From Roseburia sp. (GTDB taxonomy: Bacteria; Bacillota; Clostridia; Lachnospirales; Lachnospiraceae), in assembly GCA_022771695.1 (NCBI GenBank), contig JALEKJ010000040.1:1-64000 (forward strand): a DNA stretch of 64,000 nt, read 5' to 3'. The notes under the pieces were generated by a model. The model had not been told where the DNA came from and ran no database searches. It saw nothing but the letters and a program-made list of their open reading frames with translations. The stretch's first letter is position 1; every line of letters starts with the position of its first letter. The position numbers were made by a program, and so were the translations under genes. Below, piece after piece: positions 6,128 to 11,262 of this stretch.

Positions 6128-6961
6128 CTATTCCTTTATCTCAAGATTCTTATAATACTGCATCGGCGTCACGCCATATTCCTTCTTAAATGCCCGAAAA
6201 AAATGGTTATAGCCACCAAATCCACCCAACTGATACACCTCGCTGATTGCTTTTCCCTGCTCGATATATTTGCGGCACAAATCCAGTCTCGCCTTCACGA
6301 TATACGCATGCGGTGTCTGCCCGGTAAGCCTTTTAAATTCCCTGCAGATATGATATCTGCTGACAAAAAATTCCTTTTCCAACTGTTCCAAGGTTAAGTC
6401 CTCTGTTAAGTGCTCTCTGATATAAATGAAAATATCATCCATCATAATATGGCGACGCTTCCTGCTTTTATGTACCCGGTCCGCACCAATGCAGGCGCGA
6501 AGCGATAAAATGAGCAGCATTGAGATAAGGTTCTTCTCATACAACTTCTGTCCGTAAGGATTTTCTTCCTCTTGCATATCGCTCAATTTCAACGCAATAT
6601 TTTTTATCAGCATGGACGCTTCACTGTCAGCATGAATAACCGTTACTTTAAAAGGGACAAAGCCAAAGCCTTCCTCAAGCTTTGTCTCCTCATCCGATAG
6701 CTCTCGCAAAAATTCCGGCAGTACCCGCAGTTCTAAAATCTGTAGCTGATATCTGCCTCCCCGAAAGCGCATCGTTGACTTCTCACCCGGTTTTAAGATG
6801 ATAACATCCTCCGTGCTGCAGAGCTTCATCTCACCGTCCATCTCAAAATAGCTTGTTCCGCGGGAAACATACAAAATCATATAATATTTTCCCGCAGCAA
6901 ACTGTCTTTCCGTCGCCTCCAAAAAATCATGTTTCATCGCAATATAACTTTTTCTTTCCAT
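6128..6961 (-). CDS. AraC-family transcriptional regulator
   Basis: A 277-residue AraC/XylS-type regulator. An N-terminal cupin-like ligand domain (about 1-150) is followed by the double helix-turn-helix, with LTLEQLEKEFFVSRYHICREF and the second helix pair ending FFRAFKKEYGVTPMQYY. The start is set at the ATG at 6961, which has GGAGAGG five bases upstream; an upstream ATG at 7021 has no good ribosome site. It is transcribed divergently from the transporter-hydrolase-reductase operon and almost certainly controls it. The repeated TGCATT-like boxes between them are likely binding sites. The inducer is unknown; if the operon handles bilirubin, a tetrapyrrole is a candidate. Confidence 0.9.
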   Translation of the reverse strand: MERKSYIAMKHDFLEATERQFAAGKYYMILYVSRGTSYFEMDGEMKLCSTEDVIILKPGEKSTMRFRGGRYQLQILELRVLPEFLRELSDEETKLEEGFGFVPFKVTVIHADSEASMLIKNIALKLSDMQEEENPYGQKLYEKNLISMLLILSLRACIGADRVHKSRKRRHIMMDDIFIYIREHLTEDLTLEQLEKEFFVSRYHICREFKRLTGQTPHAYIVKARLDLCRKYIEQGKAISEVYQLGGFGGYNHFFRAFKKEYGVTPMQYYKNLEIKE

Positions 6962-7060
6962 AGATTCCTCTCCACGCATAGTCATTTTTACCATAGAATC
7001 TGTTTTTAGCATATCATGCATGCACAGTTATTACAACATGTCAATTTTTGCTAGTTCTCG

Positions 7061-7102
7061 TGCAATAAATGGATATGCATTGTTTTTTGTGCATTCTATA
7101 AT
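7061..7102 (+). promoter_or_regulatory. Promoter and putative AraC-regulator boxes of the transporter operon
   Basis: A good -10 (TATAAT 7097-7102) has no recognisable -35, as expected for an activator-dependent promoter. Three TGCAWT half-sites sit upstream and over the -35 position, at 7061-7066, 7076-7081 and 7090-7095, spaced 15 and 14 bp. Confidence 0.5.
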
Positions 7103-9265: not shown

Positions 9266-9324
9266 TCTTGTCACCCCGGAAGCAGCCTTTTGCCGCTTCC
9301 CCATTATAGAAAGAAGGAATTATC

Positions 9325-11262
9325 ATGAACATTTTAGATCCAATCAAAGTAGGAAAAACAACATTCAAAAACCGTATCATGTTTCCACCTCTTACCACCG
9401 GCTACGAGGAACGCGACGGCTCCATCGGCGAACAGAGCTTTCAGTTCTATAAACGCCTTGCCGAAGGTGGGGTTGCATATATCGTCATCGGAGATGTTGC
9501 TCCGGTAGCAACCTTCAGCCCGACGCCAAAGCTTTTTAAGGAGGAACAGATTGCACCGTTTAAGCGCCTTGCCGACGCATGCCATGAACATGATTGTAAG
9601 CTCGGCATCCAGCTTTTCCATCCGGAATATAATGTTGACGCATTAAATGCACTGTTTGCACAGGGTAAGATGGAAGAGGCAAGAGCAAGACTTCACCATG
9701 ATATGCAGCATTTTATCAACGAAGTAACGGAAGAACAGTTAAATACCCTGCTTGACCGCATGGAGGTCTGTGCAAAACTTGCAGAGCGTGCAGGCGTTGA
9801 TTGTATCGAAGTTCACGGCGATCGTCTCGTTGGTTCTCTGTGTTCAAAGATTTTAAACCAGCGTACCGATAACTACGGCGGAAGCTTTGAAAATCGTACA
9901 CGGTTTGCATTAGCACTGGTAGAGCGCTTGAAAAAAGCAGTTCCTGACATGGTCATTGACTATAAACTGCCAATTATCACACCGTTAAAAGATGGCGGCT
10001 TACGCGGAAAAGGCGGTCTGGAATTAGAAGAAGCAAAAAAACTGGCAGTTCTTTTGGAAAAAGCCGGCGTTGATACGCTCCACGTAGCACAGGCAAACCA
10101 TACCGGAAATATGGCAGATACGATTCCTCCGATGGGCACACAGCCATATGGATTTACCGTATACTGTGCCGAAGAGATAAAGGAACTGGTAAGCATCCCG
10201 GTATCCTGCGTCGGAAGAGTCGTTACCCCGGAGGCAGCAGAAGCCATTGTCTCCTCCGGCAAAGCAGATATCGTCGGATTAGGACGCTCCCTGCTCACAG
10301 ACCCTGATTTTGTGAAGAAGTGTGAAGCCGGAAACACCTGCTGCGTCAGAACTTGTATCATGTGTAACAAGGGCTGTACCGACAACATCCAGAATCGCGC
10401 TTTCTTAAGCTGTGTTCTCAACGCAGAAAACGGTTACGAAGGAAAACGTGTCATTACACCGGCCGAGAAGAAGAAAAACATCGCTGTTATCGGTGCCGGT
10501 ATTGCCGGATTAGAGGCGGCAAGAGTTGCTGCCACAAAGGGGCACAACGTTACCGTATTTGAGAAATCCCTGCAGGCAGGCGGTCAGCTTCTGATTGCCA
10601 GTGTTCCACCGCGCAAAGAGGAGATGATGCGAATCTTAAATTATTATCAGGCAGTTTTGGCTACACTTCCGGTTACCTTCCGTTTCGGCACCACATTGGC
10701 TCCGGAAAACTATACCGATTATGATGATATTATCGTTGCAACCGGCGCCTCCAACTTTATCCCACCGATTCCGGGACACGAGCTTCCAATCGTAACCAGC
10801 GCGTGGGATGTATTGGCAAAGAAATCCATTGTTTTTGGCAAGGTTGTTGTCATCGGTGGTGGTCTTGTCGGTGTAGAGACCGCAGAATATTTAGCAGGAC
10901 TCGGCTGTGAAGTCACGGTTGTAGAAATGCTGGATGCAATCGCAAAAGAAGAAAGCAACACCATCCTGCCTACACTCACCAAAGAACTGGATTCCTATGG
11001 CGTTGTACGCTACACCAATACAAAGCTTGACGAAATCCACGCGGCATCCGTCACTGTTACAACAACCGCTCCGGATGCCGAGCCGAAGACTTTTGACATC
11101 CCTGCCAACTTCGTAGTTATGGCGGTCGGTGCCAGAAAGCATCTGCCGGAAATGAACGACTGTCCGGTTCCGGTTCATTATGTAGGCGACTGCGGCGGCG
11201 AACGTCCAAGCAATATCGACCACGCCGTAAAGAGCGCATATGATGCTGCAAATTCGTTATAA
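9325..11262 (+). CDS. bilR: BilR-type bilirubin reductase candidate (Old Yellow Enzyme with Fe-S and FAD/NAD domains)
   Basis: A 645-residue reductase with the architecture of 2,4-dienoyl-CoA reductase and enoate reductase. It has an FMN TIM barrel (1-335), a [4Fe-4S] site C344-x2-C347-x3-C351-x11-C363, an FAD Rossmann fold starting at IAVIGAGIAG (386) and an NAD fold with VVVIGGGLVGVE. At the substrate position the usual HAxHxxY-type motif is replaced by HGDR at 164-167. That motif, at this numbering, is the one reported for gut bilirubin reductase BilR, which reduces bilirubin to urobilinogen. Known bil loci often carry a flavodoxin-like bilS; none is here, and the C-terminal redox half may take its place. 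The family is certain, the BilR function is likely but unproven, and a related unsaturated compound is the alternative. Confidence 0.8.
   Translation: MNILDPIKVGKTTFKNRIMFPPLTTGYEERDGSIGEQSFQFYKRLAEGGVAYIVIGDVAPVATFSPTPKLFKEEQIAPFKRLADACHEHDCKLGIQLFHPEYNVDALNALFAQGKMEEARARLHHDMQHFINEVTEEQLNTLLDRMEVCAKLAERAGVDCIEVHGDRLVGSLCSKILNQRTDNYGGSFENRTRFALALVERLKKAVPDMVIDYKLPIITPLKDGGLRGKGGLELEEAKKLAVLLEKAGVDTLHVAQANHTGNMADTIPPMGTQPYGFTVYCAEEIKELVSIPVSCVGRVVTPEAAEAIVSSGKADIVGLGRSLLTDPDFVKKCEAGNTCCVRTCIMCNKGCTDNIQNRAFLSCVLNAENGYEGKRVITPAEKKKNIAVIGAGIAGLEAARVAATKGHNVTVFEKSLQAGGQLLIASVPPRKEEMMRILNYYQAVLATLPVTFRFGTTLAPENYTDYDDIIVATGASNFIPPIPGHELPIVTSAWDVLAKKSIVFGKVVVIGGGLVGVETAEYLAGLGCEVTVVEMLDAIAKEESNTILPTLTKELDSYGVVRYTNTKLDEIHAASVTVTTTAPDAEPKTFDIPANFVVMAVGARKHLPEMNDCPVPVHYVGDCGGERPSNIDHAVKSAYDAANSL

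Follow-up and report, generated by a model that had tools for sequence, protein, structure and literature searches.

The locus studied here lies in a 64,000-nucleotide stretch of Roseburia sp. DNA (the window, meaning the whole stretch analysed) and raises two questions: whether its HGDR-bearing reductase is a bilirubin reductase, BilR, as the first-pass annotation had proposed, and what the genes beside it might do. The features that bear on both are collected in Table 1.

Table 1. Positions of features at the bilR locus of the window, and loci of the BilR sample that hold the symporter-hydrolase cassette
Feature	Position or locus	Strand	Remark
AraC-family regulator, 297-aa ORF, divergent	6128..7021	-	PF12833/PF00165
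Predicted operator, half-sites TCAATTTTT and GCAATAAAT, starts 21 bp apart	7038..7077	+	Conserved block
GPH-family (MFS_2) cation symporter, 458 aa	7150..8526	+	TIGR00792, 292.8 bits (cut-off 231.35)
Alpha/beta hydrolase, feruloyl-esterase/lipase type, 248 aa	8519..9265	+	Pfam
bilR ORF, ATG start, 645 aa	9325..11262	+	Long form without the 28-residue insertion
HGDR codons (residues 164-167)	9814..9825	+	
Stretch with C344, C347, C351 and C363	10354..10413	+	Alignment to E. coli FadH
Cassette loci (1)	L071, L073, L075, L076, L078, L085, L093, L096, L101		
Cassette loci (2)	L102, L123, L132, L134, L135, L137, L138, L139, L147		

The long form that had been read from the sequence was recovered with Pfam, which places Oxidored_FMN (PF00724) at residues 3 to 336 and Pyr_redox_2 (PF07992) at 385 to 605. 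The four cysteines listed in Table 1 align with four cysteines of FadH, which are the Fe-S ligands of that enzyme, and they are invariant in the BilR alignments. The predicted structure (pLDDT, 91.1) has E. coli FadH (1ps9) as its nearest solved fold. The protein also scores 1040 bits against the NCBIfam model NF045599, "bilirubin reductase, long form" (cut-off, 750), and 525.7 bits against the domain model NF045592 (cut-off, 425); both scores lie far past the cut-offs, so that recognition as a BilR is by now a matter of routine annotation. The motif sits exactly where it had been noted, with the same numbering, 164 to 167, as published for R. gnavus BilR, and D166 and R167 are reported there as critical to bilirubin reduction (PMC10769871, main text). 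Roseburia has been on the list of bilR bearers since 2024.

Relatives were collected by scanning a named genome collection with an alignment of 13 non-insertion BilRs. The scan relied not on HGDR but on two further conserved motifs, MFPPLTTG and HTGNM[AG]DT; it matched 212 stretches, of which 188 encode a relative, and from these the best 80 were retained. All 80 of these best 80 of 188 carry HGDR, which rules out a chance motif. Within the same 80, the motif starts at positions 163 to 165 in 39 relatives and at 178 in L082; in the other 40, which have about 28 extra residues ahead of it, it starts at 192. We equate the rows with the motif at 192, and the rest, with the insertion and non-insertion forms of PMC13252198, an equation of the present analysis; one of the former, L086, sits outside the main insertion group in the tree. 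This tree was a quick one (short search, SH-aLRT only, long outgroup branches) of 67 rows, namely, the window protein, the 40 non-insertion and 16 of the 40 insertion forms, 6 BilVs and 4 other OYEs. These OYEs were family matches, from which four further ones were dropped because their longest frame was not full length. The rows exclude the R. gnavus, C. difficile and C. symbiosum BilRs and a named FldZ. As seen in the tree, all 57 BilR rows form a single group (100, starred) apart from the BilVs and the other OYEs; placement beside these had been proposed as a check, and the window protein falls inside the BilR group. So does Faecalibacillus intestinalis (L116, strain SNUG30099), the one species in the tree that the preprint PMC13252198 also assayed, by way of its bilR-bilV operon. 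The nearest relatives in the collection come from MAGs labelled Roseburia, Agathobacter or Lachnospiraceae. BilV itself was rejected as an identity for the window protein, which has HGDR in place of the AHAH motif and is 32 to 33% identical to two BilVs. Overall, the predicted protein is very probably a member of the BilR family with bilirubin-type reduction.

Two unusual relatives were also observed. One, at L067:7502-9547 in G761, a genome of the same genus, shows 61 to 64% identity, has HGGR replacing HGDR and shares the AraC/LCP gene context of the window; G761 has a second BilR, of the insertion type and with HGDR, on a separate contig. The other is the first of three consecutive ORFs of about 700 aa at L082:1995-8672 and has its HGDR at 178.

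The family identity that the first-pass annotation had assigned thus stands on curated models, motif, tree and fold; its expectation of urobilinogen as the product needs a correction. In the published assay, BilR alone reduced methine bridges only, and the vinyl groups needed BilV (PMC13252198, main text). The window genome, which is 99.99% complete and lies in 69 contigs, yielded no BilV, its sole PF00724 match being BilR itself. Therefore, with the assay as a guide, the organism is expected to make divinyl-urobilinogen, not urobilinogen.

Next, we considered the genes around bilR. The absence of bilS and bilQ, which had been pointed out before, was confirmed by scanning the adjacent genes, among which there was neither a bilS-like flavodoxin nor a bilQ-like MarR; what had been overlooked is a conserved symporter-hydrolase-bilR operon. 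The symporter ORF shares its final 8 bp with the hydrolase ORF, and 59 bp separate the hydrolase from bilR, so that there are strong grounds for regarding bilR as closing an operon of three genes, and we infer that the three genes are co-transcribed. An LCP-family gene lies downstream of bilR. The symporter is 65 to 86% identical to 11 cassette orthologues and distant from the E. coli carriers (YihO, 27%; UidB, 25%; YihP, 25%; MelB, 22%). Its score against the UidB model NF007353 is the best among the GPH equivalogs listed, 210.5 bits, and stays under the cut-off of 528. Its nearest solved structures are lysophosphatidylcholine or melibiose carriers, a lysophosphatidylcholine symporter being the top match (E, 7.5e-29). 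The hydrolase has Ser113, Asp198 and His227 invariant in all 14 sequences aligned, and its model (pLDDT, 91.2) is closest to a thermostable lipase and then to feruloyl esterases; feruloyl and cinnamoyl esterases figure among the closest enzymes of solved structure, and the sequence weakly matches 6ny9, the human acyl-glucuronide esterase ABHD10 (E, 4.3e-4). In the hydrolase-bilR gap, a GC-rich inverted repeat without a T run was seen by eye at 9278-9300, a possible mRNA hairpin.

Symporter and hydrolase genes lie near bilR in 18 of the 80 loci (best 80 of 188; Table 1), 17 of them among the 40 non-insertion forms and 1 among the 40 insertion types; five of the 18 (L134, L135 and L137-L139) are near-copies. 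By record title, the hosts include Roseburia and Agathobacter MAGs, "Lactobacillus rogosae" ATCC 27753, Faecalimonas umbilicata, Clostridium thermobutyricum, Romboutsia timonensis, Gemmiger formicilis and Faecalibacterium, and gene order is conserved in loci whose titles belong to four families (Lachnospiraceae, Oscillospiraceae, Clostridiaceae and Peptostreptococcaceae). Cassette-bearing bacteria are common in the human gut. In L132, which has the insertion form of BilR, the symporter-hydrolase pair is on the opposite strand, and this cassette is a separate association. Mapped on the tree, the cassette label changes 7 times, at least 5 of these across starred branches. The other 62 of the 80 loci (best 80 of 188) have no visible cassette, and some could conceal one, since 15 of these symporter-less loci have less than 3.3 kb upstream. 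In the closely related L072 and L074, AraC and bilR are retained with no symporter or hydrolase; together with the 62 loci, this indicates that BilR can do without both. BilV was found near bilR in 25 of the 80 loci, including 3 of the 40 non-insertion ones, and never together with the cassette symporter (0 of 80; best 80 of 188 throughout). In the Collinsella sp. BA40 locus (L092:9115-9924), a 48%-identical hydrolase adjoins bilR, and no symporter is present. No cassette was found in the four loci named Lysobacter, Flavobacterium (two) and Bizionia, a small sample. A scan for a link to haem or bile took in ten proteins encoded next to bilR in six loci (four of those genera, together with L084 and L079) and gave nothing telling.

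The same association was evaluated across whole genomes with symporter thresholds of our choosing, so that the counts cover matches past those thresholds only. Among 397 genomes of the family, BilR passed its cut-off in 10. The symporter (E≤1e-120) was confined to 4 of these BilR-positive genomes, one of them the window's (hypergeometric, 2e-7, a value that assumes independent genomes and ignores relatedness). The hydrolase (E≤1e-40) was found in 6, of which 4 are the symporter genomes (57 to 100% identity) and the other two have 36% and 34% identity. Within the genus, the symporter (E≤1e-100) occurs in 10 of 62 genomes, all 10 with an HGDR BilR gene, and it adjoins BilR in 8 of them. In G727 and G728, the AraC-symporter-hydrolase trio lies away from bilR, and there an insertion-type BilR sits beside BilV. 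Distances of BilR and of its cassette partners correlate over 171 pairs (Pearson, 0.88 to 0.93; Spearman, 0.46 to 0.60), which is compatible with joint descent and was given no weight for want of a species-tree control. We conclude that the cassette is very likely linked to BilR in function.

All 18 cassette loci have an AraC gene no more than 5 kb from bilR. In the window, the gap between it and the symporter gene holds the direct repeat and, downstream of this, TATAAT at 7097-7102; allowing up to 3 mismatches, the operator pattern has one match in the whole window genome. The half-sites that AraC recognizes in the arabinose operon show a spacing similar to 21 bp. A matrix was built from 8 sites, those of the window and seven loci, and applied to held-out loci. 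In each of the 13 held-out cassette loci, its highest-scoring site of the whole locus falls upstream of the operon; five of the 13 are mutual near-copies, and others closely resemble training loci. One of the cassette sites, that of L085, scores low (5.3) and is still the top site within its locus. The top site was so placed in 6 of the 12 held-out loci that have AraC and no cassette and in 2 of 48 without AraC, against a few percent of loci by our estimate of chance. In the AraC-only loci, the scores are weaker (7.9 to 14.7), and the best ones in 20 random 20-kb stretches reach up to 13.8, so that position weighs more than score there. The direct-repeat block stands immediately ahead of bilR in L072 and L074, and the bilV-bilR pairs of L125 and L121 have weaker copies, each the best of its locus (scores, 12.8 and 7.9). 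The AraC protein probably switches the operon via the 21-bp direct repeat, to which it is predicted to bind, and gene and operator together are a candidate bile-pigment sensor. An upstream site scoring 16.6 was also observed at L118:9871-9908, an insertion-type BilR locus of a Roseburia MAG with no AraC gene adjoining; L118 may correspond to the second BilR locus of G761, which would suggest control in trans.

As to what the operon handles, feruloyl esterases split sugar esters to set free an aromatic acid, and in the bilirubin conjugates of bile the pigment is joined to sugar acids or sugars by acyl ester bonds. Human ABHD10 cuts the acyl-glucuronides of two drugs (PMC8389839). Given the esterase-type fold and triad, the ABHD10 precedent and the nearest solved symporters, we read the operon as one for conjugate uptake and ester cleavage. 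The symporter would import an ester-conjugated bile pigment, either bilirubin mono- or diglucuronide or the glucoside or xyloside conjugates; the hydrolase would cleave the acyl-sugar ester in the cytosol; BilR would then pass electrons to the liberated pigment; and the released sugar acid could serve as a carbon source. These steps, the nature of the cargo above all, are proposed on the basis of computed features, namely, family membership, gene order, the shared upstream site and the co-occurrence of symporter and BilR. That BilR belongs to an AraC-switched operon for conjugated-pigment uptake, ester cleavage and reduction seems to us fairly likely. For the cargo itself, a conjugated bile pigment, perhaps bilirubin acyl-glucuronide before others, is a credible and still tentative proposal. 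Counted in its favour were the glucuronide symporter UidB as a member of the GPH family and, with the small sample in mind, the cassette-free loci named Lysobacter, Flavobacterium and Bizionia. The symporter is no closer to UidB than to YihO, YihP or MelB and scores under the UidB cut-off, so the cargo cannot be read from its sequence. Also against this reading, the best matches of the hydrolase are lipases and feruloyl esterases rather than glucuronide esterases, and the window genome encodes, at L160:1477-3351, a 624-aa GH2 protein, beta-glucuronidase-like by eye and beside a GH3-like ORF, which is an alternative candidate for deconjugation. The glucuronate isomerase UxaC has no discriminating value, since it is present in 14 of 14 cassette genomes and also in 9 of 10 BilR genomes without the symporter. 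The bilR literature covered, as far as its main texts go, contained no activity measurement for any cassette BilR.

Other readings of the operon have to be weighed against conjugate uptake. The symporter could run outward and remove urobilinoids, or carry free bilirubin or biliverdin, with the hydrolase handling a side product. Its relative YihP carries a putative-exporter annotation, the lysophosphatidylcholine symporter shows that this fold can handle amphipathic cargo, and co-occurrence with BilR would be compatible; however, the hydrolase, with its triad conserved in all 14 sequences, would be left without a clear role, and in Collinsella sp. BA40 it keeps company with bilR where the symporter is missing. 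We regard this reading as unlikely. The hydrolase's feruloyl and cinnamoyl esterase relatives would suit another cargo, plant phenolic-sugar esters, which would be imported and cleaved before an OYE merely sharing HGDR reduced the cinnamate, and several cassette hosts are fibre-associated butyrate producers. Against this, the reductase lies within the BilR group, where HGDR is universal (80 of the best 80 of 188), the cassette also stands beside an insertion-type BilR (L132), and weaker copies of the upstream site lead the bilV-bilR pairs of L125 and L121. The reported need for D166 and R167 in bilirubin reduction (PMC10769871, main text) points the same way, and we consider phenolic esters quite unlikely.

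The neighbours might also be incidental to an ordinary BilR, as the 62 of 80 loci without a cassette (best 80 of 188) and R. gnavus, with just bilR of bilQ/R/S (PMC10769871, main text), would allow. We disfavour this explanation as very improbable in view of the overlapping ORFs, the order conserved across four families, the shared upstream site and a symporter confined to BilR genomes in both sets searched (397 of the family and 62 of the genus). Equally remote is a 2,4-dienoyl-CoA, bile-acid (BaiCD) or enoate reductase in place of BilR: the fold is shared with FadH, but FadH is 32% identical and without HGDR, the window protein having HGDR and a two-residue gap in the context of FadH Tyr166, and the score under the BaiCD model NF041087, 418.5 bits, falls short of its cut-off of 825.

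Published work already covers BilR and its motif, its occurrence in Roseburia and Faecalibacterium, and the BilR subtypes. The unexpected part is a conserved bilR operon that brings along a transporter, an esterase-like enzyme and a regulator of its own; the main texts of PMC10769871 and PMC13252198 name no transporter, hydrolase or AraC, and cassette, regulator and upstream site were absent from the literature searched, although an earlier description may exist elsewhere. According to the main text of PMC10769871, deconjugation by beta-glucuronidases ahead of reduction is deemed likely, experiments with bilirubin diglucuronide are needed to settle the order, and free bilirubin is open to reabsorption into the enterohepatic circulation. 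If conjugate uptake is correct, ester cleavage and reduction would follow it in one cell, a different route in which bilirubin is captured intracellularly and never released for reabsorption. The broader proposal, that gut butyrate producers (Roseburia, Faecalibacterium and Gemmiger) import intact conjugated bilirubin and process it through a serine esterase, in the place of a beta-glucuronidase, and BilR, under a dedicated AraC sensor of the pigment, is a speculative one that we hold with some doubt. The three genes and the short operator make the order of deconjugation and reduction directly testable.

Finally, the operon was compared with known systems. The long BilR of R. gnavus CC55_001C, compared by its published description rather than by sequence alignment, resembles the window protein in domains, in HGDR at 164 to 167 and in lacking bilS and bilQ; it is, however, the only one of the three bil genes there, whereas bilR of the window is third in an AraC-regulated symporter-hydrolase-bilR operon (PMC10769871, main text). 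The bilQ-bilR-bilS arrangement of C. difficile and C. symbiosum likewise couples a regulator to a BilR barrel, but with a MarR protein, a short BilR and a separate flavodoxin in place of AraC and a long BilR with a fused FAD/NAD half, and the same main text names no transporter or hydrolase for it, unlike the window operon. The bilV-bilR pair of Faecalibacillus intestinalis (PMC13252198, main text) shares the BilR group with the window. Some such pairs (L125 and L121) also have an AraC gene and the weaker form of the upstream site, as in the window; the partner gene encodes a vinyl reductase, unlike the window operon. Outside bile pigments, uidAB and melR-melAB of E. coli place a GPH symporter gene beside the gene of a cargo-opening enzyme, and melR diverges from melAB, by annotation, as the AraC gene does here. 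The enzyme is a glycosidase in those operons, in contrast to the ester-type hydrolase and reductase of the window, and the symporters are just 25% (UidB) and 22% (MelB) identical.
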